Source of the DNA: Branchiostoma floridae
Taxonomy: Eukaryota > Chordata > Leptocardii > Amphioxiformes > Branchiostomatidae
DNA: 64,000 nucleotides
Assembly (NCBI RefSeq): GCF_000003815.2
Contig: NC_049982.1
Span: 16,980,691-17,044,690, forward strand
Direction of reading: 5' to 3'
The position numbers were made by a program, and so were the translations under genes. Under the pieces are notes generated by a model. The model ran no database searches. It was not told the DNA's origin and saw only the letters and a program-made list of their open reading frames with translations. Position 1 is the stretch's first letter. Every line of letters begins with the position of its first letter. Positions 2,514-51,442 of this stretch are shown here, one piece after another.

Positions 2514-2615
2514 GACAGATCTTCAGACAGTGTTACCCCCATGTCCAGGTCAGGTCCACTGTACTGGTAGTACAAGTTGAGGAGCTGCACAGCAGGAGGT
2601 GCAGACACAGAGGCT

Positions 2616-5600: not shown

Positions 5601-5756
5601 AGGAATGTCATACATAACACATGCCCGAACTGTCGTGGGCGGAATGACCCCAAGGACTCCTGGGTAATGCCGGACATGCCGGACAGTCAGGAAATCAGAG
5701 ACTATCTAATGGGTGTCACTGAGGGCAACGGCAATGGAAGTCAGAAATTGAAGTGA
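2616..5756 (+). CDS. RNF141: RNF141-like RING finger protein
   Basis: Coding exons are 2616-2795, 3448-3566, 4257-4365, 4750-4943, 5143-5256 and 5603-5756, joining in frame to 289 aa. The start is the ATG giving MGQDQSQ, which matches the MGQ start of vertebrate RNF141 and leaves Gly2 for likely N-myristoylation. The middle carries the family block [18 protein letters not shown] (exon 3) followed by the [12 protein letters not shown] segment (exon 4). The RING is C3HC4: [20 protein letters not shown] in exon 5 and then NTCPNCRG in exon 6, so the last zinc ligands sit across an intron. Vertebrate RNF141 is 230 aa; this copy is longer mainly in the acidic N-terminus. Likely an E3 ubiquitin ligase by its RING; the substrate is unknown. 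A 5' UTR exon may begin at 2514. It converges on the large minus-strand gene at 7734. Confidence 0.9.
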
Positions 5757-7733: not shown

Positions 7734-8845
7734 TTAAGAAGAAGGCTTTGCCTCCTGACATGTGTCACAGTAGCAGGCATCTATCCTTCGATAGTTGTAG
7801 GTAGTAGAGGTGCCATCAGTACACTGCATGGGGACAGCCACATCTGTCCAGGCCTTGTCCTGACAGCATGTGCACTCATGGTTCATGTCATGTGCTGTGA
7901 AGAAAAGAGATTTCTATATCACACATGTGATCTTATCCAACAGAATAAGATTTTGAGTAGGCTTGACCAAAAAATAATGGCTTGTTTGAGCATGTACTGT
8001 AATCTAAACAAGTTTGGGTTGATACCTGGGATGATATAAAACATCTGATATTCTCTACACAGCTGCAGTCCAGGTAGATCTGATTTCTGACCCTCCATTA
8101 TGCCTAATTAAATATAATTGCTTATTCTGGCTTGCCCAACATCCATCCAGTTACAGCCCCGGCCACACGGAGTTTGTGTTGCACAGACTACATGTTATGA
8201 CTGTACCAAAATATATTTACTTTAACCTGAATTCCATGCTCTAGGACTAGGAGAACAATAGATACATTTCTAAATAATACGCATTGCTTTTCTTGCATTT
8301 ATTAACCAGTGATTCCTTTAGTCGTAGCTGTGTAAGACCAAACTGTAAAGGTGCACTCTCACTGCACTTGTGTCAAGCTTGCGTCACTGCGGAGTTCGAA
8401 AGATACTCAACGAATTTCAGAAATAAAGAATGAATTTTCTTACTTTTTTGTGTATCTTGTCATCTTCTAAGTCATACTTTTACGTATTATGCAATATCTA
8501 AATTATAAAAAATTGGAGAAAATAACAAAGCAGTGATGCAGTGAACGATCCCCGGAGTGACACAAGCTTAAGGCAAGTGCAGTGAGAGTGCACCTTAAGG
8601 TTTGATCCACTCAAATTGGGAAGGACCCCAACTCTTTTTCGTAAGAGTGGCCATCTTTAACTTGCTTGAGACATGGTTCTTCTCAAAGACGAGGTATGCA
8701 TGTATGAACAGGTGTCTCTCACCTTGGTACATGACGCTGGACCTGCACCTTCCCTCGCACCATGTGGTGTTGACCGTGCTAACACTGGTGCACTCATCAA
8801 TCTGCAGGGTCTCCTCTTTGGTAAATACTTTACAGCTTTCCCTAC
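7734..8845 (-). other. C-terminal cystine knot (CTCK), last two exons
   Basis: Exon 8723-8845 reads ETLQIDECTS, VNTTWCEGRCRSSVMYQ, and exon 7734-7894 reads HDMNHECTCCQDKAW through IDACYCDTC to the stop. The spacing (CEGRC, then CTCC, then CYCDTC) is that of the vWF and mucin CTCK domain, which dimerises those proteins through their C-termini. The two exons join phase 1 to phase 1, giving the continuous MYQAHDMNHECTCC. Its presence shows that this is the true protein end. Confidence 0.92.
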
Positions 8846-11800
8846 CTGTTGACAGGCGAAACCAAATGTATTACATAAGAGTCATAAGTAAGCAAGACTG
8901 AGAAAGGTACATTTGTACAGGGATCATCTGTGCAAATTCTTGTCAGGGCCTAAACTTTGATTTTGGCTCGTCAATGAAGGTTCGACATCGAGGTAATAAG
9001 ATACACCAAAAAGCAATTACTTAAGCAACTGGATATGATTTTGTAAACGGTTAGACGTTTCAGACAGCCATCCGGCATCTGGAGAAATCTTGCTGGAGAG
9101 AGTTTTTATATCCTAGCTGTAAATTGATGTGCAAAAGAGATCTAGCTGTAGAACCAGTTTATTCTAACTATCAATTAAAATGCAAAAAGAGGAAGACAAT
9201 TTTTAAGTAGTTTAAAGGAAACAAGGTTAAGACAAGTTAAGACTAAGTTGATGGAAATGAGTTAATTAGCTCCTCTTGTTTGAATTGATTTTGGCTTTTT
9301 ATTTTTTTCATCCAACATAAGGCAACAAGGAGATGTTTCCTACTTACAGTTGGTATCATCATACACCTTGCAGCATCCATCGGTAGTATTAACTTCCTTC
9401 AGCAGCTCCACTGGGCAGTTTCTTGGGGGGATGAGTGATGGACAGGGTCTGGTCATGCACTGCTCCACTGGCTGACCATTCATCCAGCTACATGAGCAGG
9501 TCCTGCAGTGGTCACTCTGATCAGTCCACTCTGTACCAACCTATGGACAGGAGAAGAGATATATGTAATACTGTAGTGTAGAATCTGTGAAATCAAGGTT
9601 GAAAGTTTTAGTGAGTGAAAGATGACAAAAGCACAAGACCAGGTGCATGGATTGTGGAACACATTTACATACTGGGTAGGTGATGTTGAGTTGCACGCAG
9701 ACAGGTTCCCGAGTGCAGTTGACATGCTTGCATCCACATTCGTCCTCGTGGACAGTCTTGCTGTAGCCAAGAGGGCAGGCGGTCTGGGGGTCAGGAGGGC
9801 ACAGGCTTGTCCTGTTCAGACAGTCGATGTGATGAAAGCCAGTTGTCGTATCTATTTGTACTGTGCACCGACACAGCTGACAAGGGCCGTCATTCCAGCT
9901 GGAACCAACCTACACATAAACATCCCAAAAGGTATGAGTTTCCTACAGTGGCAGTTTTAAGAATGAGCTTCTACTATGTATTTAGTTTAAACTTAAGATA
10001 CTAACAAAATGCAATGATTTAACATAACATCCCAACTCTGAATTAGTAAAGCCATCCCCCAAATCAAGGTATTTTAACCCTCTCCCTACTTTTGTAGCCT
10101 TTGAGCACCAAATAACAATTTGGTTACTGTGCTATGTAGCAAAGAGAATGTTGTATATTTGATACACAAGACCAAGAGGAGTAGAGTTTAACATCAAAAT
10201 CCTTTGGCACATTTCCATGGTAACATCCTTTGGTCTGATGGCTGGAACTATCCTTGGTGCTGAAAGTTATGACAAGAGCTTTCCACTGAATAGTACAATT
10301 GCACGAACCTGATGAACTGTATCCTGGTACACACAGACAGGCTCCTGTGTACAGTTGACATGTTCACAGCCGCACTGGTCCAACAGGACAGTCTTTGTGT
10401 AGCCAATAGGACAGGACTTCTCCACAGCTGGGCACAAGGAGGAAAGGTCCACACACTCCACCCAGTGGAACCCAGTTGCCCTGTCCCATTCGTCTGTACA
10501 ATCACAGCGCTCACAGGGACCCTCATTCCATGTGGATCCAATCTACCAAAGAAAATGGACATTATTATTAGGACTGAAAACTGTGTTTTGTGTAGCTGTA
10601 GAATAATTTTGTTGTGGGAAGGATTTGCCTGTCAATTTAGTGAGATTATACATGAATTTACCTGATGCTCCGTGTTGTGATGCACACAGACCTGCTTACG
10701 AGTACAGTTGACAAGGCTGCAGCCACATTCGTCCTTCGTGATGGAAATGCCGTAGCCCACAGGACAGCTTTCCTCCACATAGGGACAGCTGCGCTGCACA
10801 CAATGTACCTGGTAGAACTGTGTGACCTGGTCACGGTCATTTGTGCACTGGCACTGATCACAGGCTCCTTCATTCCAGCTGGATCCAATCTACAGTAGGA
10901 ATATAGCTCAAAATGTTAAAATCCATGTGAACTGCTGTGTGTGGGAATGAGCCTTCTATCTTCTGGTAATTACATTACAGATGAATTCTTTTCCATTTGT
11001 CAGAATCCCAACCTACTCAACTTGACAAGAGTCTGATGCTTAGACAAACAAATGTTATGGTCAATGTAAACACCATGAACAGACATGGATCTTACTACTG
11101 CACACATGAGAACATTAAATCCAACTCTATAAATTACCAAGTTGATTGTACCTAATCAAATTTTGGATGAAAAAAGAATATTAGATGATGGCCTTGCTGC
11201 TCAAATGCCTTCTATCTTAGAGTATTAAATGTACTTAATAAGTGGGCAAGCTAAGATTTACTCTACCTGATATGCAGCACCCAGATGTACACAGACTTGC
11301 TCCTGGGTACAGTTGACAAGCTCACAGCCACACTCGTCAACAGAAATGACCTTACTGTAGCCAACAGAGCAAGTGTCAGGTGGAGGGCAGACTGTGCGAC
11401 GTTTGGAACGCCGTACTACATGAAAGCCACTGTTCTGGTCCACGTCTGGGGTGCATTCACACTTAGCACAGGGTTCTTCAGTCCACACAGTTCCAACCTG
11501 AGTACAAAAGAAAGGGTACTTGTTCACAGCTTAGTGTCAGAACCCCCCCCCCCCCCCCACACACACACACACACAAAAAGAAAATTACATTGTACGTCAA
11601 AGTGAGGTACACATGACATGTACTTACCCCAAACTCCATGTTCTGGTACAGACACACATTCTTACGTCTGCAGTTTCCATGGCCGCAGCCACACTCATCC
11701 TTGCTGATAATCAGGTCATAACCAATAGGACAGGTCATGTCCACAGCAGGGCATGGCCTGGGCTCACAGTTCAGGACATGGAAGTTGGTGGTCAGATCTA

Positions 11801-14800
11801 TCTCAGGTGTGCAAACACATTCCAAACAGGCACCTTCAGTCCATGCTGACCCGATCTGTGGAATAGAAGAATCTCTGCTCAAAATGAAATGGTTATCAAT
11901 GGAGTCTTCAGTTTTACTGGAGCATATTTCATTGGTCTAGTTACATGTAATAACATCAGGACATAATGGAAGAATGATATAGTGAAAGCCTACTTGGTAA
12001 GTGATATTGCCATGCACACAGACAGGCTCCTGTGTACAGTTGACATGTTCACAGCCGCACTGGTCCAACAGGACAGTCTTTGTGTAGCCAATAGGACAGG
12101 ACTTCTCCACAGCTGGGCACAGAGCTGAGAGGTCCACACACTGCACCAGGTGAAAACCAGTTCCAAGGTCCACTGTGTTTTCACAGGTACACTGTTTACA
12201 CTGCCCTTCATTCCAGGTGTCCCAACCTACAAGTGTGAGACATACATGCACATTTAGAATAGCTGAATACACAAGAAGTTCTGTACTCCACATGCACAGC
12301 ATCCTTGTACCAGAAGCATGCTTTGAATTGGAAATTCTACCTTGGATTCACCACAATTCTGGTTGCAAATCAAATGTCTTTGTTGTGGTAATTCTCTGCA
12401 GAGATTTGTTCACCATAACAACTTCTGCTTCTATTGTAAAACAAGCAATTAAGTCGATCACCCTGCCAGCAGATAAAATGTGTTAAGATGTACAGAACAC
12501 ATTATCCTACTGTTGCTTTTGTAAAAAGATGTAACCCATCTTGCCTGGTGTTCTATGTTGAGGTGCACACAGATTTGTTTCTGAGTACAGTTAACCTGTG
12601 TGCAGCCACAGCGGTCACTGCTGGTGGTCAGTGTGTACCCCACAGGGCACGCCTCCTCCACATGTGGACAGTCCTTCCTACGACAGCTGATGGTGCGGAA
12701 CTGTGTATCCACATCAATGTCCTCTGTACACTCACATGTCTCACACATGCCTTCACTCCAGGAGTTGCCCACCTGTTAAAAGCAACCACCAAACCTTACA
12801 TGTATTGCACATGATTTTATCTGAAGATTAAAAAAAAGATCCTGCAGTTATGAAGGAGGATAAAGGACTCAATATTTCAATTTGCTTTTCTAAATTTAAG
12901 ACATTCAGCCTGACAGCAGGTGGTTCTGACAATACGTATTCCTGCTCTGCTACTTATATAGATTTTCAAGGGCATGTTGCATACAGCTCACTAGAAACTG
13001 GAACACAATGGATCAAGCCAAGGGCAATCCAAGTAAACAACTTTCAACCTGACTTCTCAAATGTATGTTGAACTGTACCTTTTTGCTCTGACAGTGTAAA
13101 CTTCCTAGAAAAGTGATGCTGTGTATTCTACAATTTTGTAATTACCTGATAGGTCAGGTTGTTGTGGACACAGACGTCCATCTGTGAGCACTGGACTTCA
13201 CGGCAGCAGGAGTTCTCTACTATTGTTGTCATGAAACCGGTGGCACAATGTTGCTGAGGGGGGCATGTCTTATTCTGGTGGGTCAGCTGGTTGTGCCCGG
13301 TGCAGCAGATCAGCTGACAGCTGTTACCGTAGGGAGTCCAGCACTCGCCCAGTCTGCGGGGCATGTTGTACTCATCCACACAGCCATCTGTCACACAACA
13401 CAGACAAGAAAGCAATGAATACCTCTATCTGTGTCTAAATATAGACTCCTTGGTATGACTCTCTCAATGGGTACAAAATGTTATACATTATAAACATGCT
13501 TTCTTATACTTGGCCCATGTCCTTTGCTATATTCTTAGTTCTTCATCCATGCTTAGTTCAACATGGTTAGTTCACTGCTACAGTTTGATCATATGATAAC
13601 ATCAATTTGTAGGCATATAATGCTAAAGGTGTAAACATTGTATAACATATGAGAGGCATAAAAATAAGATCATAACTAATCATCAATAAAAGTGGATAAA
13701 ACTTACAACATGTGTCAGGGGTCACACATACTCCAGTCTGTGAATGGAGCACCAGCCCATCCTCACAGAAACAGCCTTCAGTTGGTGTAGCACAGTCAGT
13801 CTGGCCAGCAATGTCCTTGCTGTCACAGGTCTGTTCACAGCTGCAGGCTTTGTACACAGCACCACTCCCACAGCTAAGAGCTGCAGATATATAGGTAAGA
13901 GCTAAGATTTCAGACACATGACGAAATAGCTATCCCAGGTACTGAAATGTAGGTTGCTGTTAATTTGATTATAGGACACATTCATTCATCAAATAAAACT
14001 GATGAGGTTCTGTGTGATAAACACATTCTGGTAATTTTGACTTACAGCAATTGTTGGCCTTCCCCCTCCAATCCAGACAGACCCCCAACCGCAAGCATTC
14101 GGAGGCATATGCTGACAGAGCGCTACATTCTGTAGCACAATGTTGTGTGTCATACAGACATGCCTGGTGGTAGGTGTCAACAGGCACAATGGTATGGCAG
14201 GATGAAAATGGTCCAACGGGATCCTGTCAAGCAAAAACAGAATCAGACAAAGCACCCTGTTACCTCTGTGTGGCATAATATTTTTTTTTTTTGCAATAGA
14301 AGTCATCAGTACCACAGACAACGTCACAGAGAGTCAAAGGATAATATAGAATGCATGTTTTGCCCCATGGAACTTAGAAAAAGCAAGGTGATTTTAATCA
14401 TGTACATTTTCAACACAAATTCACACTTCCCATGCACTCCTCTTGTGCTGTCTACCACATCCCTAAAGTCTGTGACACAGAACAGCACTGGTGACAGCAT
14501 ATATGCAAACTTTGCATTTGTTATAACTACCAGTATGTACTTACATATAATATCACATGTGTGTCATGGTGAGGAAATAAAAAGTTCTTACTGTTAACAC
14601 TTGACAGACACTATCATCACATTTGTGACATGGTGGGCTGGCACACTCAGGCTTGCCACAGGATGACTCCACTGGGCCTGTGTTGGGTACTTTCCACTGG
14701 TGCAGGCACTCACAATCATTGCATTCATCCTTCAGGTTATCACATCGACCTGTGCAACATGGATAAGTCATGACCATTGGTAAGAAGTTACCATGAAGCC

Positions 14801-17800
14801 CACAGTAATTGGAAGTCATGGTGATGGGATGAGTGCTGGTTTACCTAGCCATCATCTATTTCTTAGATGTCAGTAAATTTAATTGAAACACTTGAAAAGT
14901 ATGAGTTTACAGATGGCAAGTGTGTTCCAGAGGGCAAATAAAGGAATGCTTGTGATGAGACTGGTTACAAACATTTGGTGCATAGGTTCAATATGAGGCT
15001 GCAAGCCATGTCGCAAGAGAAAAGGACCCAATTGTGGAATGACTCCTTTCCCTTCCTGCATATTAGGTGCTTGTGCACTGAAAATAACTATAAAAGTCCA
15101 ACATATACAACTTATTAATAAACATCTTTAACTCTCACAGAGACCTATACTGAGTCTCCTGTCTTCCTCTCCAAAATATGAAAATAATACTTAAGTGACT
15201 ATACTTCTGTAATCTGGTGCAGACCTAGATTTTCTGTGCTGGTACCCACCCCTAGTCTTGGTGCATCACATACGAAATTTCAATCATTAATCAAATCATG
15301 TTTCTACGACTTACAATAATCACTCACCACATAACCCTTCCGTACGGTTCCCAAACAATTTGGGAGGCACAATGATGAAGAACTGACTGCTCAGCCAATC
15401 ATAAGTCGCCGTGACCTCAAGTGCTGGGATCTGTAATACCAGCTCAATCCCCTTAGTGGCTACAGTCATTCCTTCATAGGTGATGGGTAGCCTCCACTCT
15501 GATCCATTAATAAAGACCTACAAAACAAGTGCCAAATGAATTGAGTTTGCATGTAAAAAATACATAATGTATGAGAATATTGAACTGTATTATTTAAGTT
15601 GCAACACAATGTTGCATCAACAATCTTGAGATAGAGTTTCAGCACCTTCTGTTTAGGCCTGAGAGAGACCTCATGGCCCTTGTACTTGACAATGACAGCA
15701 TTGGTGCAGGTTGTTGTTCCAGCCGGAGGGTCACATTCCCCATTTTCACCAACAATCTCAAACTCCTGGGTTCCAATAGGCCGAGCAAGCACAAACTGTC
15801 CATCCCCTTGGAACATGAAGTACTGCCCATCAAAGTTGAGGTAATGTGGGTCTCCATAGCCACGACACATACCTGAGGAAATACATGTTTAAAATATATT
15901 CTATTGTGTTTCTTTGTGTTGAATATATGCATTGTACATGTTGTATGTACCTGTTGGAACTAACTACAGATGACTTACAGGTTTAACCATCATGCAGCAA
16001 TATGGCATAACATAGTATACTACCAAATCCAATGTACTTTTAAATTACCAAAAGTGCAATGTGATGTCATCTTGACAGGGTAGATAGGCTATCAAGAACC
16101 ATGTAACCATGAAGTTCTCATATTTTCCCCCTCTTACCTTGCTCTTACCTAATGATACTCTTCAAAACTTATGATCAACATCATACTTATGTCATCAACA
16201 TTTCAAGCATGCTTTATATTGATGCTACAACAGACTTACATCCACATGTGTACTGGGGACAACAGTCACCAACGCTGACAGGTGGAAGGCCATTCAAGCA
16301 TGTTGGTGGCTGTATCTCAGGACAAGTCAGGGTGTTCTCCATGGAGATGAGGCCACAGTTACAGCTGAAGAGTGTACGCTTGCAGTGGTTGTCTGCATCA
16401 TACCATGTCTCTCCATTCTAGAAAAGACAATGGCACATGGTTTAAAAAATCTCATGGTAGTTGTCTCTATAAACACTGCTGACATGTATTCTGAACAATT
16501 TCTTGAAAAGCTTTCTTTTGCCCTTAAAATATATATAAAAGTATAATGTAACAGTTTATTACTCACTTTCCTTGGCTGTCCAAAATTGTCCACACATGAC
16601 TTGTTCTGTGGGGATTCACAGCAGTAGACACGCACAGCATAGTCATAGCATGTACCTGGACCCCTGAGTCAATATAAAAGCATCTTTAGCCACGGCAATT
16701 TCATATTCAATATGGAAACAAATTCTTATTTCTTATGTTCCATCAAAGAGTACTTTAACCAGATTCTCACCAGATGCTGGGAATGTTGCTGGACAGACAG
16801 TGCAGTCCTGTGTTGACATCACACTCCACGCCTTCCTGTTTGACTGTGCTGAAGGGGAAGTCAGGTGCCTTGCTGTTTCGACATTGGATGTCCTTTGGCT
16901 GGGAACAAAACTCCAAACCAGCTGCACGCAGGTGCTCATAGGTCTCATCATCATCAGCTGGAGACAGAACAGAGAGGGACATGTTGATATTATGTCAAAG
17001 GGTACACAGTCAAAGGGGGCACAGCAACATAAGCAAGGTGATCACAATAACCATTATAGCAAGGAGATAAAAATGTAGTCTTACGTGGACTTTTGGACGG
17101 TGTGTCTGAGTTCATCCACGGGCTCCATGAGCAGACTGGTTTCTCCTGGCAACCACAGGTCATGACATCACAGCCACACTCGTCTTGACTTGTAGTGGCT
17201 ACAGTGTTTGGGGGGCAAGTCTTGGAACTACTTGGACACACTGCAAGAGGCAGAAAAATAGTAGGCACATTTAAACTGTTACAAGACATCGCTGTATCCT
17301 GATTTTTATATCATTGACCAAATTTTGTACATTCTTCAAGATCACTCATGATTGATTTCATCAAATGCAGGGAAGGTCTTTAAAACTTACTTTTATGATA
17401 TTCATCTTCAGATTTAGAAAAAAAATAGGGCAATAAACAACAGAACATAATACAGTAGAAGCCATTTATTTGGGACACCCCATTTGCCAGTGTATGTTGT
17501 GCAATTATCCGTGTAGTGCAACAATGCAAAGTTATCCAGCTGGACCGCACTTGTTTGGGATTTGCAGACTCTGTGCAATTAACAGAAGTGTGCAGTAATT
17601 GGTTGTGCAATTAACTGGCTTCTACTGTATAGAAATACTATACCAGCTTGCGATATAATGCAGCACCCGTCTGCTGTTGGGACCTCCCTGATACGGTCAG
17701 CTGGACAGGTGGATGGTAGATAGTGTTCTACACATGGCATTCTGGGGCAGAATGCAAAGACTCCTGCATCACTGCTGCTGCATGTGCACACATGGCAGGA

Positions 17801-32800: not shown

Positions 32801-35800
32801 GTCAAGATATGAAGATACACATTGTCAAAATTATCATAATTTTGATATTCTCATAACACTGTCCTTTAATCAACATGAGCCATGAGCCTCAATTTATTCT
32901 TTCTTTCTTGCCAAGCAATATGATTTTCAATTAATTTTGCTGACAAAATGCTAATTCTGTTGTTGACAAATGATGAACCACTTTAAATGACCATAAACTT
33001 TGTGTGTACTCACCACATCCTGTTGCAGTTCTCCAGTCAATGATAACACCATGTTCTGCACAGTCCTCAGCAAAGGTGGCAAAGCTGTCGCACCGATGTT
33101 CCTCACTCTCATCTTCACACATGTCAATCATACAGTTCTCAGTGTACATCTGTCAACAGAACCATAATGTGTGACATTAAAAAAAAATACCACATGGACA
33201 CATGCAAGTGTAACAAAGAGCAGTTTCCAAAGAATGTCATTTCTGACATATTACTTACACGTATGCATAGCCTCAAGCATCAGCATTCACTATCAAGTTG
33301 TAGACAAGAAAAAGCAAGAGAGTAAAGAATTGTCCAGCTAATTCATACATACAGACTCTGGCTCTATTCAATATCAGCATTACAAAGTATTGCTGCAGAT
33401 TAAAGTTAATCTAAGCCAGTCATGTTTCAAGAAACATTATTGGTGGCAGATTCTAGTATAAAACAGCATCTGCACAAAGGTTCTGATTGAACAATTTGCA
33501 TGTGCTTAAGATGACACACAAGGAAGATGTGAAGTAGTTGAAAGAAATTCTAGTAAATAAAATAAAAGTAATATTTTACTACAGGCAAGTGACAGGTATT
33601 TGAGAAAAGTACCTGGGCATCCAAAAGTAAGTGGCAGGCAGAGAACTCCAAGTCAGGGTCTAGCAGAGCCTTGCACTTGTCCTCCACACGTCGCTGGATA
33701 CTGGCAGGACAGTTGAACACATACTCATCCTCCATCTCCCTACACCTGCACCAGAGACAAAATACTACTTGTATACAGAAGCAGAACATACACATGGCTA
33801 AATGACAGCATGTAGATAGCAAAAAATAAATGTGAAACTGTCAACATTTTACATTATACAGTAGGATTTTCTTTAAATAAAATTACTGTAGGTATTATGT
33901 ACAGCAAGGGGATGGCAAATAAGGCTGAACTGAATGTTTTTTCAAAACATATTTCATCTAGCAATGTGCACATGCTGCCATCATTCTTGTTGAATATGTT
34001 TCCAACTGTGACCTAATATGTCTACAATCGAGTCCATAATGTTCACTGTATATAACGTTATTCTCAAGGGCCCATGTTGACATATATACTCTAGGTCAGT
34101 GTTCCAGCTGTTGCCCATGTCGGTGGCACTGGCTGCCGGTGTACCATCAGCCTTCAGCAGGTCATTACTCTTGTCCATGTTAAAGTCCTGGCACATCCCC
34201 ACAAGTTTCCCCATGTAGGGTGGGGGCACATACACCTGTGGACACACAAGCCTCCTCATAGTGCAACATTTACAATCATGTATTCAGCCATGATTACACC
34301 CTTAGACAAGAATGCAATAATCAAGCTAAATGTTCAACAGGGCCATTAATGCCTTTGGTACATACATCAATCATCATGACAATAGAAGATTTAATGTTAC
34401 GTTATACATTATTGGTATTGAAACCTTCACTTAATTGTACATGCTGAGAAATAAAGACTTATAGATTGATGATATACAACCTTTCCAATGTGTCAAATGG
34501 TGATATAAATGTCTAATTGACTTGCCAAATTACTTGATATGTATGCAAGAGGACACAGTCAGGGATATCACCACTGTCATACCTCTGCCATGTTAAGTCC
34601 ATTGAAAGCGACTCTGACCCCAAAGTCCATGACAACCACCACCTGCCGGCCCTGGAGATGGATGGTGAAACCCACTCCTTTGTACGGCAGCCTGGTAAAC
34701 ACCCCGTCAACCTGGGCAGTTAAACATCATCAGCAAGGAGGGACATGGAATGATGTTATAAAATGCAGCCAAGCTAATAGTACAAAAGTACAGAATACAA
34801 AAGAAAAAACAACAAGTTTTGAAAATTTCATAAATCATACATTCTATTTCTCCTTGAAATGGAAGACTTTGAGAGTGTCAGTACGTGATATGATCTGCAG
34901 CAGCTACAATGTGACGTTATAACGTTATTAAAGGTAACAGTGTCTCACCAAGACCCTTCTTCCCTTCTGCAGTGTGATGCGATGACCACTGACATCAACA
35001 TACACTTCTGCAGTGTATGACACATGAAAATTGTTTCTTCGATGCTCATTCTTGACTTCCACATTGAATGGCTGCAGTGTGTCGTTGCTAGCTGTGCTCT
35101 GGTACTTGGACATTGTGTAGGTACAGATGCCCATAAAGTCGTAGTTCCTGCCATCGAAGGTTTGATAGTGGGGATCACCATAGGCCCTGCAGTATGCACC
35201 ACGGGCCACTGGATAATACATTTTTATAAAACAGAAAAAATATAGACTATTAGATTAGCAAACTAATTTTGTCAAATCACTTTTCCCTTAGTTTATCCCA
35301 TACATTTTTACACCCTTTGCGACATAACACAAGCAGAAAGCTAAGGCACACATTTTCTAATCCAAAATGTCCTTATTTAAGTGATCAATACATTTAGCAT
35401 TACCAACCTAAACCTTTCAGTCTTGCACATAACAGCAGTACATTATGCAGCATATATATGTAGCCCTCTCATCACCAACCTACTTTATCATTCATAATTT
35501 TTCATCTTGGACTCACCTGGTGGCAGTGTAGGTGTGACTTTGTCCATGCCTGCAAACAGATGGAAAGATTTTAATTTGTATTTTGTCATCATAATCAATG
35601 TAACGTTAATATTATAATATTATCACACAAACTGCTTCATTGCTCAATAATATTGTAATTCAAAAATACGAAAAAAACTACATCCAAGACAGCTACCAGT
35701 CAGTAACTAACTAGCAAACTTGACTTACCAACAATCTGGTAGACTTGGTTGGACCAAGGGCCTCCTTTCCCATCATATCCACAGGACAGTGACCGTCCAT

Positions 35801-38800
35801 GCTTCCAATAGGTGTCCTGTGCTGTTTTGGAAGAGAAACACTGCCCTCCATTTTGAACAGCAAACACTGTAAAGCCACGGCTCAAGGCAACTTGGTAGCA
35901 CCTGTGAATGGCATTTGGACGTTTGTGGTAGTTGAATCTATCCAGTAACTGGTCCGTCCCTTCTAAAGTGTCAACTGCACGGTCCACAGTGTCTATCCAG
36001 CAGCCAAGACTCTTGTATGGCCCTGACAGAGGAACAATCATAAAAATTAAAACCTGCAGTCAATAAACACTTTATACAATGTAATGTTCTGGCTCAACAA
36101 GAAACTGCAAGATTAACAACTGCATTGATTTGAATTCAAAAATGTGAGTCCTATGTTTCTGACTATACCTAGAAATTGCATAGCTGATGGCTAAACAATG
36201 ATCCAACACAATATCAATAACTAAACTTTTGTCTACAGCCTTCTTCAGATTTGAACAAATGACCATTCCTCAAAGGATATGACTTGATATGAAAAAAAAA
36301 ACATTGCATCATTTGTATTCTATCAAATACTAAATGACTATTAAAATGAAAACACTGCAATTATATAAATTCATGACATTGAAAACAAACACAAGTAATG
36401 CTAGTAGTAAGATATAAATTTGATACATTTCTCCCATGTTACCTTAAAATTGGTCATCTGAAGCCTGTTGCTACTGCCTATTTTGTTTGGATGTTTTGAT
36501 ATAACTGACCTTCACACACTGTCTCCTGTAGTGCCTGTGCAATGGTGGCAAGTGATGAAAAGTCTGAGACGTGTAGAATTCGGCTTGGATCCCCAGCAAT
36601 ATGTTCTAATGTCATATCATTCACACCGTCCCCAACGCCCACTGCATAGACAGTGATTCCACTTTGTGCTGCATGTCGGGCTGGGTCCAACACGCTGTCA
36701 TACGACTCTCCATCCGTGATGACAATCAATACATTGCGGATATCCTCACGGTCACCATTGGAGGGTCTAAATTTTCTCCGGCGAACAAAATCGATGGCTT
36801 TCCCGGTATTGGTGCTTCCCTTCTTGTAAGGAATTCTCTCGATGGCCGATAGAACATGTGACCTGTCAGAGTAGCTAGGCAGATATATGTAAACAGAAGA
36901 TATTGTTAAACATATCAATTTGGTAGTTAACGTTACATGCATACACTGTCTTTTCCTGAAATGTCTACGCTCAACAACATGTGTAATGGTACCAGTCGGT
37001 ATTTAATACCAACTTGAAGGAGCTTTAATTTATACAGTATAAAAGCTCCTTGGTATTACTGAATCATTTTCAATAAAAGTTGAACAACGTTCAATAAAAG
37101 ATGAACAACAAATAATATTCTGTGTGTGTTACCTGTTCATGTCAAACTCAGTGTTGGGGAATGTGCTGTACTGTACCACTCCGACCCGGGTGTGGGTGGG
37201 GGAGATGTCAAAGGTGTTGATGACTTGGGATGTAAAGTCCTTCAGCTTTTGAAAGTTGGATAGTCCTATGCTGCCTGATCCATCCAGGAGGAAGACCAGG
37301 TCCACTTTTAGCTTCTGTGTCTTGCAAGAGAGCTCTGTAAGAGTTTAACGTCAAAGCTGTTACATGACTCAATCTAATGTTATATTTCATGTGGGCTGCA
37401 GCTGAGGGGTTAGGTGCAAAATGATTGTAACAGTTGCTATTAGATTGTCAAGACCAGACAAATTTGTACATATTAAGTAGGCATTGATGTAGTAGACAAC
37501 AAAGTCAACAGCAGGAATTGAGAGATTCTTCCTGTGCAAGTTTTTGCAGGCACTGAAAGAGGCTGTAAAATTCAGCCCAGTTTGTAACAGCTGTAACGTT
37601 ACTCTCCTGTCAAAAAGGTTGGTGAGTTTCTACACTGTGACAACTCTAGGTTTTGACATCCCTATGTTGGCCACGATTTACTCCTGGATTCAGGTAGGGG
37701 GTATTGGAACATATATAACGTTATACATTGTATATATGTAGGGGCGTCGGAACATAAGGGTGCCAGGAAATAGGGGCGTAACCTACCAGTACAGACTCTT
37801 CCATCACCACTGTATCCGGGCAGACATTCACATCGGTACTGGGTGGTACCCAGGGGGACACACCTGGCCTGATCCTCAGGGGCACAGTCGGACCGGGCAC
37901 ATGGGTCAGCTGGGGGTCGGGCAGCACCAGGAGGGCGTAGGGCTGAGGAGTAGAGGCAAAGATGCACCTGTTATGCATGGGATATCTGTAATATCTGAAA
38001 AATTGCTCAGTCCCAAAACTATTTGAAAAAAATCTCAAGATTATTTGAAAAATCTCAAGATTGTTGGAAAAATTTCAAGATTGTTGGAAAAATCTCAAGA
38101 TTCTTTGAAACCATATCATTTGAAAGCAATGTTAACCAAAAAACCCAAGGATTATTTGAAAATCTCAATACTGTTTGAAACGAACTCAAGATTGTTTAAA
38201 ACAATGTTAAGGTTCAGTGTTACTGACGAAAACTGGTGGATTCCAGTTGAAACGTCTGACCGTTTCCAAAACCATATCCAGTTGCTTGAGTAACTACTTT
38301 TTGGTGTATCTTATTACCTGGATGTCTAACCTACACCGACGAATGTTAAGGTTAATTGACAAAATTTCAAGATTGGTTTAATCGATCTCAAGATACTTTG
38401 AAAAAACTTCAAGACTAATTGAAACAACCTTAAGATAACCATACGCATGATCGTACCCTTTGCATCATAATTGCATTGATATCAATCGAAACTCGGTTAC
38501 AGAAAAGTCTTTTTAGCGAATGCCCACTATATCCATAAAGATGTCGGCCGTCGCACCCATGAGTTTAATATACATGTGTAACGTTATTTGCACAGTAGTG
38601 ATATGCTTCGAATTTCTTCATCAAACTAGTAGAAAGAACTGAGGAAACAACCTTTGCAAACACTTCCATCTCCGTTGACATCTTGAAATCCTGGTAGACA
38701 ATGGCAGCTGTACTGGGTGTCGCTGATGGCCTTACAGAAGCCTCCTGCAGGAGCACAGGTCGCCTGATCACAGGGGTCGGCTGGGGGCTGCCAGGAACCA

Positions 38801-40766
38801 GAAGGGTGGAGGGCTGACCGATCGAGAAAAGGCAGGGATATACCAATTATGCTTAGTCTTGATATGCTTTAAATTTCTTCATTAAATTAAGATAAAGGAT
38901 TGTGGAACCAACCTCTGCAAATACTGCCATCTCCGTTAACATCTTCAAATCCTGGTAGACAACGACAGCTGTACTGAGTGTCGCTGATGGCCTTACAGAA
39001 GCCACCTGCAGGAGCACAGGTGGCCTGATCACAGGGGTCGGCTGTAGGGAGGGAGAAGGACGAGCGCAGTTTGAGTGTAGATAATGATGATAAAAACAAT
39101 TTTCACAAGTCGGAAAGATGAAAAAAGCTGCAGTTATATGTTGCAGGAAAGCAAAGTTATGAATTACATTGATGGATATGGTAGACACACAGTGCTGAAA
39201 ACTTGTAATTCCTCGATGGAGGACAAATTTTATCAACATTTCCTGTAACGTTACATCTTTCCTCTGACACTCAAGTGCCAGGTAGAGACCCATTTTATAT
39301 TCAAGCTGCTATGAGGGTAAAGGGCCTTGACACTCGAGGCCGCTGGAATAATGAATATTGCTTAATATTGGCTTGTCCCCCATTCTTAGACCATCTTTCA
39401 ATAAACAACATGATGCTGGGTGTCAGCTTTTGACGTCTTGTTCGAATCTCTGTTGATATATGAAGAGGTTTAAATGAGTTAGGAGGGCAGCAGAAAGGTA
39501 TCATGAATGCCTGTGATATTGACGAGCCAAAAATATTGATCTTTTATCAAGGTTTGTTCTGGATTTAAAAATGACTTGATAGAGCTTTCGAAGAAGAAAA
39601 CAATGTATAACAACAAAATTCATCCTGACCTTGTGATGCTCTCTTTACAACCGACTTGACATCGTTTCTGTTCACTGCTAACCCATGGCATGCTAGAAGG
39701 ACAAAAATATGATAACTTAAACTGTGTCATGAGAATTAGTGACTGACAAAATTCAACCCAGTCTGCTGCGTAAATCCAAAGTAGATGTCTCTGAAACAAG
39801 ATGATAAGTAAAGATTTAAGAATCAATTTTGCTTGTACTACGGAAGTCTAGTAGACTCTCGATACGGAAACAAGGGAAACTTCTGCCCTATATATAGGCA
39901 CGAGAAAGGAACCACCTGCCATTTAAGCCATGTGTGCATGTGTTCTAGATTCCCTAACGGTCCTCGTTCTTCCACCTTTTCCTTCAGCACGTCTTGTTAA
40001 CGAGACTAGGAAGCCTCAGAACAAGTAACAATGGGCGGATGTCCTGTTCATGTTCGTCTCGTTCGGATTGGGTCTGACAAGTGTGGTCCGACAGCCATGT
40101 ACCTTTGTTCAAGAACTTTTTTGTAAGACGTACCTTAAAACAAGAATTCAACTGATAAAGCACTAATTGATTCGCTGAGTCGTTATCAATTTCAACCGCA
40201 GAGAATGCAGAACAAAACATGGTGTGATACATGTTCCGGAGTGAGTGGAACGTTTTGAGTTTTCGAAACCACCTTACAAGAGAAGAATCGAGATTGATAA
40301 CCATGTCTTGCCTTGATAGTTACCGAACACGCTTCATACCCCAAAACGAAGTACCACTCTGCACAATGCTTGGAACCACGCACATGAAGAGGAGGCCATG
40401 GTGAACATCGCGGCACAGCTGTAGCAGTAGTCCAGAAGTGCGTTACAACTAACCCCCCGGAGTCAGTTTTAGACGTAATTTAATTTAAAAGAGGAGCCTG
40501 ACATTACCGTTTCCATCATGTACACTCACTTCAAATCCTTCCCTGTAAGCGAAGAGGTCCCTTTTATTGTTGTGAGAAGCGGCATGTTCCATAAATTGCC
40601 GATGAACAAAACGAAGCCCAATTTTCTCATTTTGACGAAGACAACGGTACGAAATCCATAAAACGCAGTTAAATAGAAATCCCTCTTACTGAAGCTTACC
40701 TGTTAGTATAGTTGCGACAAAGACTGCCGTGTGGGTGAACACACCCCCTTTGCTCAGTTTCATCAT
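7734..40766 (-). CDS. Giant secreted vWF/gel-forming-mucin-like protein (EGF-VWA-WSC-D domains-CysD-C modules-CTCK)
   Basis: I could place 63 exons, from ATG 40766 to TAA 7734, all in one continuous phase chain except inside N gaps and at one exon (see 11994-12226). Exons, high to low: 40766-40700, 39692-39630, 39041-38913, 38780-38652, 37909-37787, 37334-37133, 36874-36510, 36022-35729, 35549-35517, 35208-34949, 34711-34583, 34235-34090, 33745-33613, 33149-33014, 32771-32563, gap, 31037-30886, 30559-30426, 30184-30100, 29619-29493, 29257-29130, 28966-28839, 28565-28474, 27911-27677, 27324-27278, 27077-26918, 26680-26574, 26327-26227, 25828-25630, 25300-25085, 24576-24327, 24093-24050, 23924-23793, 23674-23548, 23322-23184, 22932-22736, gap, 21895-21849, 21487-21365, 21133-20977, 20599-20454, 20155-19895, 19760-19636, gap, 18325-18227, 17830-17644, 17240-17085, 16957-16771, 16663-16567, 16417-16240, 15872-15646, 15517-15328, 14749-14592, 14223-14046, 13880-13707, 13387-13146, 12772-12545, 12226-11994, 11855-11628, 11497-11267, 10889-10662, 10542-10309, 9909-9673, 9540-9348, 8845-8723, 7894-7734. 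The product is at least 3,400 aa, secreted, and probably disulfide-multimerised like vWF and mucins. That role is inferred from the family. Confidence 0.85.
8349..8596. mobile_element. MITE with about 45-bp terminal inverted repeats
   Basis: The two ends are inverted copies: the first 21 bases from GGTGCACTCTCACTGCACTTG are exact at both ends, and the next 25 or so are similar. The element is about 250 bp, AT-rich inside, has no ORF, and lies in the intron between the two CTCK exons. TAA-like bases flank both ends and may be the target duplication. Confidence 0.75.
9348..9540 (-). other. VWC domain exon before the cystine knot
   Basis: The exon starts VGTEWTDQSDHCRTCSCSW and ends TDGCCKVYDDTN. 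The CxxCxC and the late CC pair are the VWC signature. The split codon at the donor (T + GT) restores a cysteine at the start of the CTCK exon. A VWC directly before the CTCK is also the order in vWF and mucins. Confidence 0.8.
11543..11574. repeat. Poly(C) and (AC)n tract
   Basis: Sixteen C are followed by about eight AC units, within the intron between two Cys-module exons. Such tracts are prone to length change and sequencing error. Confidence 0.9.
11994..12226 (-). other. Cys-module exon with a one-base deletion
   Basis: The six sister exons have lengths divisible by three and read (V/I)G-x-x-W. Here the acceptor is followed by GTTGGGACACCTGGAATG, one base short of V-G-x-T-W-N, so the exon is 233 bases and the downstream frame is off by one relative to the acceptor. 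The rest of the module is intact in the shifted frame. This may be an assembly error or a real lesion. Confidence 0.75.
13146..13387 (-). other. Cys-rich linker module after the fifth D unit
   Basis: The 81-residue exon contains GCVDEYNMPRRLGECW, CQLICCTGH, CPPQQHCATGF and NSCCREVQC, and ends CVHNNLTYQ like the modules that follow it. It enters in phase 1 and leaves in phase 0, which makes it the adaptor between the phase-1 TIL exon and the phase-0 module run. It is VWC-like by its CC pairs. Confidence 0.7.
13707..15872 (-). other. Fifth VWD-C8-TIL unit (D4-like)
   Basis: Exon 15646-15872 opens CRGYGDPHYLNFDGQYFMF, the start of a VWD domain. Exon 15328-15517 carries the central strand region and ends at GLCG. 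Exon 14592-14749 starts RCDNLKDECNDCEC, so the family CGxC-type motif reads GLCGRC. Exon 14046-14223 is a C8-like segment (CLYDTQHC, YASECLRLGVCLDWR), and exon 13707-13880 is TIL-like (CGSGAVYKACSC, CFCEDGLVLHSQTGVCV). By position, after CysD and before the C modules and the CTCK, it corresponds to vWF D4. Confidence 0.85.
16240..16417 (-). other. VWC domain exon between CysD and the D4-like unit
   Basis: It reads NGETWYDADNHCKRTLFSC, CNCGLISMENTLTCPE and VGDCCPQYTC. CxC, the CP and the final CC pair are VWC features. The donor is phase 1 and the split codon gives a Cys just before the VWD start. Confidence 0.75.
16567..17240 (-). other. Mucin CysD (WxxW) domain in three exons
   Basis: Exon 17085-17240 ends with CSWSPWMNSDTPSK, which has the WxxW motif. 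Exon 16771-16957 reads DDDETYEHLRAAGLEFC, DIQCRNSKAPDFPF and GVECDVNTGLHC. Exon 16567-16663 reads TCYDYAVRVYCCE. The order WxxW, ETY, C, QCR, V-x-C, GL-x-C, C-x-DY-x-VRVYCC is that of the CysD domains of MUC2, MUC5AC and MUC5B. Only one copy is readable. The first exon also holds a TIL-like Cys segment (TCPPNTVATT, DECGCDVMTCGC) ahead of the WxxW. Confidence 0.85.
17453..17627. mobile_element. 175-bp Tc1/mariner-type MITE with TA target duplication
   Basis: The element starts CAGTAGAAGCCA and ends with the exact complement TGGCTTCTACTG, flanked by TA on both sides (17451-17452 and 17628-17629). The inner bases are partly inverted too, and there is no ORF. It lies only 16 bases beyond the donor of the exon ending at 17644. 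Confidence 0.85.
17644..18325 (-). other. VWC-like domain in two exons
   Basis: Exon 18227-18325 reads CHEYHKAQDQCCGQCIATSCC, and exon 17644-17830 reads INSTWTLPTDSCHVCTCSSS, CPRMPCV, DRIREVPTADGCCII. CxxCxC after a Trp and a late CC pair are VWC features. The exon before 18325 is lost in the gap 18685-19635. Confidence 0.75.
18161..18184. repeat. Near-perfect palindrome of the CAAGGAG family
   Basis: Twenty-four bases, CAAGGAGGTTAT and its complement with one mismatch, lie in an intron of the giant gene. The arms are shared with the hairpins at 344, 37011 and 47309. Confidence 0.5.
18685..19635. other. Assembly gap (N)
   Basis: This run of 951 N cuts into a Cys-module exon that starts at 19760 (KDTWMEGKCKRCECTAEVD). 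At least the rest of that module is missing. Confidence 0.99.
19636..20599 (-). other. TIL-like and Cys-module segment after the fourth D unit
   Basis: Exon 20454-20599 is TIL-like (CEWHYDPCGTACPATC, CDLPCLEGCHPKC). Exon 19895-20155 continues with GTVLHEGRCITPDQCP, then CGPCCNKTAPVDEYGC, and a module tail with DECGCEHIRC. Exon 19636-19760 begins a module of the kind seen downstream (TWMEGKCKRCEC) and runs into the gap. If a Ser/Thr-rich mucin tract exists, this gap would be the place for it; none is seen in the readable part. Confidence 0.75.
20923..20946. repeat. (ATT)n microsatellite
   Basis: About eight ATT units lie directly 3' of a C8 exon donor, in an intron. Confidence 0.85.
20977..23322 (-). 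other. Fourth VWD-C8 unit (D3-like), partly in an assembly gap
   Basis: Exon 23184-23322 contains CSHGSWTCTERLC followed by TCAVYGEGHFLTFDGRRYQF, the VWD start. Exon 22736-22932 carries the next strands (TCGLAIMTRLESGMEIKI). The part that should hold the CGLCG motif is hidden in N 21896-22383. Exon 21849-21895 resumes with VQLFANSWKTSA, exon 21365-21487 with CPDMAQPAPSPCEE, and exon 20977-21133 is C8 (CVSDSCACDGGGDCHCLC, YGDMCNLQGVHVRWR). The preceding extra TIL/E segment makes it correspond to vWF D3. Confidence 0.85.
21896..22383. other. Assembly gap (N)
   Basis: This run of 488 N lies inside the fourth VWD domain. The exon before it ends in phase 2 and the partial exon after it ends in phase 0, so part of an exon and probably one further exon are missing. 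Confidence 0.99.
23548..24576 (-). other. TIL, E-like and second TIL segment (D'-like)
   Basis: Exon 24327-24576 is a TIL (CPQSGQVWQECGSSCTRSC, CVAGCNCPSGLY, CPCYHQGDVYEA). The short exon 24050-24093 is E-like (CSCENGVMSCEERPP). Exons 23793-23924 and 23548-23674 give a second TIL (CANAGYGEFGLACEASC, GCVCAPGLLRYQDKCV, CPCWYSGQEYQPG). An extra TIL-E pair before a VWD is the D' arrangement of vWF and mucins and fixes the D1-D2-D'-D3 register. Confidence 0.8.
25085..27324 (-). other. Third VWD-C8 unit (D2-like)
   Basis: Exon 27278-27324 supplies CTCMARKWICTENICP. Exon 26918-27077 opens TCSVHGNLHYSTFDGHHYEF. Exon 26574-26680 (SASLLLQGGTAGRVKLLPAG), exon 26227-26327 (FGLTVLWDGRTSLY) and exon 25630-25828 (KTNGLCGTFNGNQRDDF, FSSSWKV) complete the VWD, with GLCG present. 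Exon 25085-25300 is C8 (CHDLIDPSHQIAHCQNDVC, YARECAQTGVVIDWR). For the exon ending at 26918 I chose the gtcagt donor; the alternative gtacag donor at 26899 would create a stop with the next acceptor. Confidence 0.85.
27677..31037 (-). other. Second VWD-C8-TIL unit (D1-like)
   Basis: Exon 30886-31037 holds CAAFGQSHYQTYDGNLIDF. Exons 30426-30559 and 30100-30184 are the middle strands. Exon 29493-29619 contains QMCGLCGNSNGNPDDDF with the full CGLCG motif linked to vWF and mucin assembly. Exon 29130-29257 has FGNSWKM. Exons 28839-28966 and 28474-28565 make the C8 (CHKDVDPFPYIETCKLDMC, YSRACASHGISLNWR), and exon 27677-27911 is the TIL (DECGTACPGTC, CVDGCHCPAGTVWNGTQCV). Confidence 0.87.
29758..30066. 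repeat. Intronic duplication carrying a copied exon edge
   Basis: Bases about 29811-29990 are a diverged copy of 28321-28510, including the donor end of the C8 exon 28474-28565 (the shared stretch reads taccacaaaaattt). The copy sits in the intron before exon 29493-29619 and is flanked by two direct copies of an approximately 48-bp sequence (29758-29806 and 30019-30066, core TTTCAAAAGGACATTA). The copied exon piece is too short and mutated to act as an exon. Confidence 0.75.
31541..32162. other. Assembly gap (N), probably hiding one exon
   Basis: This run of 622 N lies between a TIL exon that ends in phase 0 (32563) and a VWD exon that starts in phase 1 (31037). The phase step requires at least one unseen exon, most likely the short Cys exon that links TIL to VWD elsewhere in the gene. 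Confidence 0.95.
32267..32420. mobile_element. Pogo/Tigger-like terminal fragment
   Basis: The sequence TA-CAGTAAAACTTGCC, followed by repeated GACCACCT and ATTACGACC-type words, resembles the inverted terminal repeats of pogo/Tigger elements. I find no matching right end, so this is a one-ended relic. The right boundary given is approximate. Confidence 0.45.
32563..35208 (-). other. First (extra) VWD-C8-TIL unit
   Basis: Exon 34949-35208 opens YCRAYGDPHYQTFDGRNYDF. Exon 34583-34711 (VVVVMDFGVRVAFNGLNMAE) and exon 34090-34235 (YMGKLVGMCQDFNMDKSNDL, DMGNSWN) complete the VWD. The CGLCG position reads VGMCQDF, so one Cys of the pair is missing. Exons 33613-33745 and 33014-33149 are C8 (CHLLLDAQMYTENCMIDMC, FAEDCAEHGVIIDWR). 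Exon 32563-32771 is a TIL (CVSPCQATC, CLEGCQCKEGYVLSGETCV). This unit is additional to the D1-D2-D'-D3 set that follows. Confidence 0.87.
35517..36022 (-). other. WSC-like Cys domain plus short linker exon
   Basis: Exon 35729-36022 (98 codons, phase 1-1) reads YKSLGCWIDTVDRAVDTLEG, AIHRCYQVALSRGFTVFAVQ and NGGQCFSS, with CGYDGKGGPWSNQVYQIVG near its end. The pattern (GC-W/F at the start, a central FxVFAVQNGGxC, GPWxNxVYQ at the end) belongs to a WSC-like domain common in marine invertebrate proteins. Its carbohydrate-binding role is assumed, not shown. The 33-base exon 35517-35549 is a Pro/Thr linker to the first VWD. Confidence 0.75.
36510..37334 (-). other. VWA domain in two exons
   Basis: Exon 37133-37334 reads VDLVFLLDGSGSIG, the DxSxS metal-binding (MIDAS) motif, then VGVVQYS. 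Exon 36510-36874 continues KKGSTNTGKAIDF (the MIDAS Thr) and VLIVITDGES (the MIDAS Asp), then VYAVGVGDG, and ends ALQETVCEG. All MIDAS residues are present, so divalent-cation-dependent ligand binding is plausible. In vWF the A domains lie after D3; here the single A domain is N-terminal to all D units. Confidence 0.92.
37011..37053. repeat. Hairpin repeat of the CAAGGAG family
   Basis: AAGGAGCTTTAATTTATA faces TATAAAAGCTCCTTGG across a 3-base loop in the intron between the two VWA exons. It resembles the hairpins at 344 and 18161 but with a longer AT-rich stem. Confidence 0.5.
37787..39041 (-). other. Three EGF-like exons
   Basis: Exons 38913-39041 and 38652-38780 (43 codons each) and 37787-37909 (41 codons) are all phase 1-1. 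The first two are near-identical: ADPCDQATCAPAGGFC, YSCRCLPGF (HCLPGF in the second) and NGDG. The third reads ADPCARSDCAPEDQARC, YRCECLPGYSGDGRVC. All have six Cys in EGF spacing. The near identity of the first two suggests recent duplication. Confidence 0.88.
38019..38110. repeat. 20-bp tandem repeat in an intron
   Basis: Four to five copies of a 20-base unit (TTGTTGGAAAAATCTCAAGA and variants) run head to tail, with exact 20-base spacing from 38041 to 38100. More diverged words of the same kind continue at about 38150-38200 and 38370-38430. Confidence 0.8.
39630..40766 (-). other. Signal peptide exon and short second exon
   Basis: Exon 40700-40766 starts MMKLSKGGVFTHTAVFVATI, with a short basic N-region and a hydrophobic core, fitting a signal peptide. 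Two adjacent ATGs exist; I use the first. Exon 39630-39692 (63 bases, phase 1-1) gives ACHGLAVNRNDVKSVVKRAS, which I do not recognise. The start is supported by a TATA-like box about 100 bp upstream. Confidence 0.7.
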
Positions 40767-51061: not shown

Positions 51062-51442
51062 TATCTGAAAAAAAAATCACGCAAGTTGCGTTTTCTTAGA
51101 TAAATTTCCTTTGTCGAAAACAAGCAACCCATTCAAATTGTTATCCAAATATGTATAATGGTTAATCGTTTCATAACATATTACAGATCTTGGCACAATA
51201 TTTTATCCATATGGCGGTTTGGAATCCCCTGCATGCTGCTGATAGGACAGCCTGAATGGTATTTTTTGTCACTTGCAATTAGCCCTCGGGCAAGAACTTG
51301 CAATAAAACTTAAAGTATGATCACCCATGTCTCAAGCGGCTACGCAATAGGCCAGACGCCACAGGAACAGATGGCAAGAACAGCAGTCCTGTCAACTGAC
51401 GACCACAATGTGCGAGGTGTGGACGCCTGTGTTCATTGCAAG

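Follow-up and report, generated by a model that had tools for sequence, protein, structure and literature searches.

A Probable Lancelet Mosaic Gene with a Gel-Forming Mucin Core and an Added VWA-Containing Head

The stretch of Branchiostoma floridae DNA analysed here (the window, 64,000 nucleotides, C4:16980691-17044690) contains modules in the order shared by von Willebrand factor (VWF) and gel-forming mucins, preceded by a head of EGF, VWA, WSC-like and D-type modules. Does this locus hold a single gene, and is such a gene an old form approaching the condition that preceded the divergence of VWF and mucins, or a lineage-specific fusion, as a first-pass annotation had alternatively proposed? 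Our analysis favors, with good though not full confidence, a lancelet mucin-derived mosaic, in which a gel-forming mucin core without a PTS region carries a shuffled-in head and would form a disulfide multimer displaying that adhesive head.

The gene was assigned to the minus strand, a point absent from the first-pass annotation, where the frames are Cys-rich and contain domain-like sequence; a plus-strand reading has no domain-like exons and was rejected. The same exon-chainer run across the span gave the minus strand a score of 1450.8 and the plus strand one of 296.2; because minus-strand sequence from this very region served to train its codon model, the contrast is flattered. The curated model comprises 62 exons and 57 introns, running from an ATG pair at 40766/40763 to a TAA at 7734, in agreement with the span annotated earlier (7734-40766). 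It falls into five segments separated by three N gaps (18685-19635, 21896-22383 and 31541-32162; 951, 488 and 622 bases) and one out-of-frame exon; all 57 introns inside these segments are GT-AG, and the segments contain 0 internal stops. Small predicted exons whose sole role was phase repair were discarded by eye. At 233 bases, the exon at 12226-11994 is 1 base out of frame; a sister exon at 10542-10309, with which it shares a 205-base stretch of 84% identity, measures 234. The exon preceding the shorter one would need a GC donor. This frame break may be an assembly error, an allele or a frameshift. Elsewhere in the window lie a RING-finger protein (2596-5752, plus; zf-RING_2 2.2e-7), two tandem PLP-dependent decarboxylase-like copies (42781-51064, minus; Pyridoxal_deC 1.5e-54 for the only copy scanned, with joined exons 49969-47504), a Sel1-repeat protein (56523-59774, plus; 7.1e-19) and ion-channel exons (62079-63934, plus; Ion_trans_2 1.4e-13).

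We scanned the predicted protein with Pfam in ten pieces. The resulting order is a signal-like exon, three EGFs, VWA, a WSC-like domain, a VWD-C8-TIL unit here called D0, D1-D2-D'-D3, VWC-like modules, CysD, D4, eight VWC modules and CTCK, as follows.

40700..40766, minus: exon 1, start codon and signal-peptide-like sequence MMKLSKGGVFTHTAVFVATILT (by eye; ends in phase 1)
38913..39041, minus: EGF 1 (Pfam; exon phase 1-1)
38652..38780, minus: EGF 2 (exon phase 1-1)
37787..37909, minus: EGF 3 (Pfam; phase 1-1; in-frame alternative acceptor at 37942)
36510..37334, minus: VWA in two exons, with DGSGS, T and D of the MIDAS (Pfam)
35729..36022, minus: WSC-like domain with 4 Cys (phase 1-1; under the Pfam cut-off)
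35517..35549, minus: short linker exon (phase 1-1)
32563..35208, minus: D0, with VWD (GDPH), C8 and TIL, FCGBP-type (Pfam, tree; E exon presumably inside N gap 1)
31541..32162, no strand: N gap 1, which separates head from core
27278..31037, minus: D1, with VWD, C8, TIL, E and a CGLC motif (Pfam, alignment)
24050..27077, minus: D2, with VWD, C8, TIL and E-like module; TNGLCG, first Cys of CGLC lost (Pfam; E-like by alignment)
23548..23924, minus: D' (TIL'-E') (Pfam, alignment)
19895..23322, minus: D3, with the end of E', first half of VWD, N gap 21896-22383, C8 and TIL (Pfam)
within 19895..23322, minus: VWC-like half module after the D3 TIL (by eye)
17644..19760, minus: VWC-like modules flanking N gap 18685-19635 (by eye)
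16567..17240, minus: VWC-like half module (by eye) and single CysD (Mucin2_WxxW, Pfam)
13146..16417, minus: D4N, D4 (VWD with GDPH, C8, TIL-like) and an adjoining module (D4N by MUC2 alignment)
9348..12772, minus: VWC modules, eight exons and eight Pfam stretches, including the frame-shifted 12226-11994
7734..8845, minus: CTCK in two exons with the stop codon; CxCC dimer cysteines present

In the head, EGF models matched in three stretches (cEGF 1.2e-9), followed by VWA (5.6e-50) and by the VWD (2.7e-24), C8 (5.4e-16) and TIL (5.4e-12) of D0. The core gave VWD matches in D1 (4.3e-31), D2 (4.2e-33) and D4 (7.5e-28, with C8 at 1.8e-14), and in D3 a match to the first half of VWD (1.8e-10), the remainder lying inside the N gap, with C8 at 8.7e-22. 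A single Mucin2_WxxW match was found (3.2e-19). Pfam matched neither the D4 TIL nor any VWC in the piece spanning D3 to CysD, where the modules were named by eye, nor the CTCK, which does match the CTCK structures of VWF and MUC2 (1.3e-7 and 1.4e-6). Hence the domain search on joined exons that the first-pass annotation had proposed confirmed the architecture it had read from the letters: the D1-D2-D'-D3 ... CysD-D4-C-CTCK order, the three EGFs, the VWA with a full MIDAS and the extra VWD-C8-TIL before D1 are borne out by Pfam, alignments and structure matches.

The head is continuous over 14 exons (40766-32563, 761 aa), in phase and without a stop or gap. EGF 1 and EGF 2 differ at 10 of 126 nucleotides and, judged from this, are a recent tandem exon duplication. 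The VWA carries DGSGS, T and D, which we take to be the MIDAS motif; among solved structures, collagen VI alpha 2 matched it with 92.4 bits over a single stretch and PTMP1 with 115.9 over two, and the best VWF A-domain structure reached 70.6. WSC domains have 8 Cys. The module following the VWA has 4 and matches Pfam WSC at 1.7e-5 (25.4 bits, below the cut-off of 27.8), so that the label "WSC-like" given to it at first pass is apt; a single-sequence structure prediction of this module was unusable (pLDDT 34.2). D0 scored 151.9 bits with an FCGBP unit and 106.8 with VWF D2, and in a tree of 19 D units it grouped with two FCGBP units apart from all others (support 97), the branching inside the trio having a support of 62 only. 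On these comparisons D0 is assigned as an FCGBP-type D unit with GDPH. Its VWD exon has the same phases (1-0) as that of an FCGBP-like unit on C17, the two exons ending in KGRRVL and KGPRVL. Between the signal exon and D0, every one of the seven module boundaries is in phase 1, compared with 25 of all 57 introns; random choice of boundaries would give this with a probability of 0.0018, in a test chosen after the pattern had been seen. Such phase-1 boundaries are a mark of exon shuffling.

Several head-type sequences recur in the genome (513 Mb, 431 contigs), where at E 0.001 we found at least 165 VWD, at least 143 CysD and at least 150 WSC-like matches. The WSC-like matches to 35729-36022 are mostly 50-65% identical and form a large, apparently expanded family just below the WSC cut-off. 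One, at C13:3.83 Mb, precedes a VWD exon and has upstream exons resembling a true WSC and a C-type lectin (by eye), and another precedes a VWD exon at C13:4.70 Mb (from match listings). Window positions 36203-35823 have a 98.7% copy at C1:15980702-15981080 that ends at an N gap and probably represents either a haplotype fragment put in the wrong place or a recent duplication. FCGBP-like units also occur elsewhere: C6:15469000-15505000 holds an array of very similar VWD-C8-TIL units at a spacing of about 1,942 bases (match listings), and at C17:2776001-2786000 such D units are interspersed with EGF-like exons and one exon resembling a kringle (by eye).

Cysteines that would serve a disulfide-linked polymer are conserved in the core. 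D3 keeps both cysteines that are Ala in the VWF-XTEN construct 7kwo, presumably VWF C1099 and C1142, and the CTCK keeps the dimer CxCC in alignments to the VWF and MUC2 structures. In the VWF dimer the bonds are Cys2771-Cys2773', Cys2773-Cys2771' and Cys2811-Cys2811' (PMC6333368). D1 carries CGLC, while D2 is without its first Cys (TNGLCG), a loss that might weaken assembly. Part of the D1 C8 exon and its following intron is duplicated (28322-28511 and 29811-29993; stretches 78% and 88% identical); the second copy of the exon piece is intronic and looks dead by eye. VWF has a furin site after D2 and has no CysD. We found no furin-type site between D2 and D' in the window protein, the only R-X-[KR]-R match being at residue 2905 in a C module. 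GDPH is present in D0 and D4, and in D0 a Cys lies five residues before the Asp; the GDPH sites of FCGBP self-cleave, with the halves remaining disulfide-linked (PMC10880436).

No PTS region was detected in the window protein, in which 0 of 661 forty-residue stretches reach 0.6 S/T/P, versus 29% and 33% of those in two long frames of a mucin on C4 described below; nor does the minus strand of the span hold an S/T/P-rich open frame of at least 60 aa. The 951-base gap at 18685-19635 could hide a short PTS. By Pfam, A1-A2-A3 are absent between D3 and D4, the only VWA preceding D0, and three A domains would not fit into this 951-base gap, provided its stated length is correct. Thus, of the features that define a gel-forming mucin, D1-D3, D4 and CTCK are found and a PTS region is not. 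Neither this absence nor the FCGBP affinity of D0 figures in the first-pass annotation, whose author could not see the relatives elsewhere in the genome.

To place the core, we compared it with a lancelet PTS/CysD mucin at C4:17.99-18.06 Mb, 1 Mb from the window gene, and with others. In the 19-unit tree, in which some units are incomplete, the D2 of the C4 mucin joins exons 23 kb apart and supports were taken from the Newick line (a re-rooted listing shifts some labels), window D1, D2 and D3 are each sister to the corresponding C4 mucin units (bootstrap 96, 100 and 100). Window D4 stands beside MUC2 D4 (99); the tree contained no further D4, that of the C4 mucin having been left out. For a five-taxon core alignment of 1084 columns, 5 of the 15 topologies were tested by AU, which keeps only the pairing of window and C4 mucin. 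Placing the window core with VWF, with MUC5AC, with the C8 mucin or outside both lancelet mucins was rejected (p 0.0003-0.0006). Over D1-D3 the window core is 53.3% identical to the C4 mucin (874 positions), compared with 44.2% for C8 (840), 36.1% for VWF (892) and 33.1% for MUC5AC (658). The first Cys of the D2 CGLC is lost in both the window gene (NGLC) and the C4 mucin (KGLC) and kept in the C8 mucin, VWF and MUC5AC. Six core exon pairs of window gene and C4 mucin (354 codons) gave a pN of 0.264 and a saturated pS of 0.751, from which we read the two as old duplicates under constraint. Beyond lancelets, the core matches human VWF 34-915 in a single stretch of 588.8 bits, whereas FCGBP reaches a higher total of 838.3 bits, yet spread over 7 stretches, and D4N-D4 matches MUC2 in one stretch of 160-162 bits. 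The sister position of D1-D3 to a PTS mucin argues for descent from the gel-forming mucin lineage.

These placements bear directly on the suggestion that the locus may resemble the condition preceding the VWF-mucin split, an old form retaining both a VWA and mucin-type parts. Such a form would combine VWA, CysD and the common D/C/CTCK order in one gene, as the window does, and lancelets branch outside vertebrates. However, the core is sister to a lancelet PTS mucin to the exclusion of the four tested alternatives, the VWA scores higher with collagen VI alpha 2 than with the best VWF A structure and sits ahead of D0 rather than between D3 and D4, and the extra D unit is FCGBP-type. The VWD tree that had been proposed as a check, built here with VWF, mucins and FCGBP, speaks against a pre-split form, which the comparisons already contradict and to which we give almost no credence.

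Further evidence comes from other lancelet mucin-type loci. Among the matches listed, about seven loci, judged by eye, have both VWD and CysD matches (C4:18.0, C2:16.4, C2:18.1, C2:25.6, C8:12.1, C10:4.2 and C10:13.3-13.7 Mb). We examined three of these for a head (C4:18.0, C2:16.4 and part of C8:12.1), with flanks covered to 18.080 Mb, to 16.465 Mb and from 12.040 Mb, respectively. Within these flanks no VWA, WSC-like or EGF 1-3 match was found at E 1e-3, and no D unit precedes D1 at the three loci; some of their D exons score best with D0 pieces, but sit inside the D1-D4 series. The C4 mucin has D1-D2-D'-D3 (D2 being split by 23 kb), 14 CysD matches, D4N-D4, C modules and CTCK, with six EGFs of another subtype ahead (teneurin and EGF_2 models) and PTS open frames of 1106 and 1520 aa, in which the S/T/P share of 40-aa stretches rises to 0.82. 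At C8:12.05 Mb the locus combines five EGFs with D1-D3, CysD and PTS-like sequence, and at C2:16.4 Mb there are D units and CysD. A lancelet-mucin core with head modules lacking at these three loci supports the other alternative, a lineage-specific fusion, and, as architecture, a gel-forming or clot-type scaffold with an added head.

The fusion presupposes that head and core belong together. The single object described at first pass holds in its modules and their order; that the head (40766-32563) and core (31037-7734) form one transcript is not confirmed, and a single gene is likely rather than proven because the two meet across the 622-base N gap 1. The D0 TIL exon ends in phase 0 with a good donor, and the D1 exon begins in phase 1. 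In the C17 FCGBP-like unit a predicted TIL exon of phase 1-0 is followed by an E exon of phase 0-1, so that one missing E exon (0-1) within the gap would join D0 to D1. Phase-1 entry also holds for the D1 exon of the C4 mucin, but is not shown to be general, since a phase-0 entry is predicted for the D1 exon of the C8 mucin.

A split in or near the gap would instead leave two adjoining genes, a secreted EGF3-VWA-WSC-like-D0 protein and a PTS-less mucin-type protein starting at D1. Head and core are parted by the gap alone, a hydrophobic run that leads in frame into the D1 exon begins with an ATG at 31119, D1 entry in the C8 mucin is predicted to be in phase 0, and the three mucin-type loci examined do without VWA, WSC-like match or unit before D1. 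However, the bases that encode the hydrophobic run are the pyrimidine tract belonging to a good acceptor (score 6.3; the exon starts at 31037). Two genes would require a 3' end and a new promoter within about 1.5 kb. Neither visible flank of the gap holds an AATAAA, with a single ATTAAA at 31306, and the phases of D0 and of C4 mucin D1 fit a junction through one E exon. We regard two genes as improbable, though likelier than the other rival readings, and give a single gene roughly three chances in four or somewhat better.

An assembly artefact, in which haplotype merging or a chimeric join set an unrelated head beside a mucin-type gene, would also place these modules together. The chromosome assembly described for B. 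floridae (19 chromosomes) was haplotype-merged from Sanger reads (PMC7269912), which matters if it is the one used here, and the copy on C1 that abuts an N gap is a sign of misplaced pieces. The head nonetheless runs gap-free to D0 across its 14 in-phase exons, and the three gap sizes are not round, which suggests mate-pair estimates. The core-side flank of gap 1 has 19 genome matches; the window's own alone extends over its full length, and the remaining 18 cover a dispersed repeat or short stretches. An artefact is thus very improbable.

Taken as a single mosaic gene, the window gene can be set against known relatives. It shares with the C4 mucin D1-D2-D'-D3, CysD, D4N-D4, C modules, CTCK and the loss in the D2 CGLC, but the C4 mucin has a PTS, its 14 CysD matches and EGFs of its own subtype, and lacks the VWA, the WSC-like match and the unit before D1, all three of which the window gene has. 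Human VWF is collinear over D1-D2-D'-D3 (with part of the window D3 VWD in a gap), shares D4, C modules and CTCK, has the same D3 and CTCK dimer cysteines and likewise has no PTS; it differs in having A domains between D3 and D4 (PMC9169620) and no head. Human MUC2, MUC5AC and MUC5B share D1-D2-D3, CysD and CTCK, and MUC2 also D4N-D4 with GDPH, but they have a PTS and neither VWA nor an extra D before D1. The D units of human FCGBP resemble D0, GDPH included, whereas the protein as a whole has 12 D assemblies plus a VWD and forms no disulfide polymer (PMC10880436). A described analog in design is Ciona Ci-GFM1, a mosaic protein whose mucin/VWF core carries a small PTS of 50 residues and additional modules; among these is a chitin-binding domain, and the available part of the source does not mention a VWA head or extra D (PMC6109156). 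The same source locates Ci-GFM1 in the Ciona gut membrane and states that lancelets and tunicates feed by endostyle mucus nets. The available parts of PMC9080433 and PMC4224354 hold nothing on this architecture, and the literature searched yielded no title or abstract on this gene, which is no proof of its being undescribed.

We propose that an old duplication of an ancestor common to the window gene and the PTS mucin at C4:17.99-18.06 Mb was followed by loss of the PTS stretch, and that phase-1 modules (three EGFs, VWA, WSC-like and FCGBP-type D) were shuffled in ahead of D1. In the product, the CTCK would join chains tail to tail and D3 would join them head to head through their conserved cysteines, with D1-D2 acting as assembly template, giving a secreted disulfide multimer. 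Lacking a furin-type site between D2 and D', the mature chain would be expected to keep D1-D2 and the head. D0 would be expected to self-cleave at Gly-Asp|Pro-His with its halves held by a disulfide, and a VWA head held in this way beside a self-cleaving D0 could be released by reduction. Each subunit would then show an EGF3-VWA-WSC-like head, for which family knowledge suggests metal-dependent adhesion, in mucus, the gut membrane or another secreted matrix.

VWF has been described as a mucin-type core with VWA in place of PTS (PMC9169620, PMC6109156). The VWF likeness of the window gene looks like parallel change, and the gene does not look like a VWF ancestor. More tentatively, and with more doubt than belief, we suggest a full parallel to vertebrate VWF: a lancelet adhesive multimer made from a gel-forming mucin, with the PTS absent and an N-terminal VWA beside a self-cleaving FCGBP-type unit. 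If true, an invertebrate chordate would have combined VWA and a PTS-less mucin core a second time and independently, which would make the change repeatable. The parallel would also offer a natural comparison of the core features that adhesive multimers need (the D3 and CTCK cysteines, the D1-D2 template and CGLC), in which the loss of the D2 CGLC cysteine in two lancelet genes would serve as a natural test of the motif. The gene would further illustrate how phase-1 exon shuffling can feed a mucin core.
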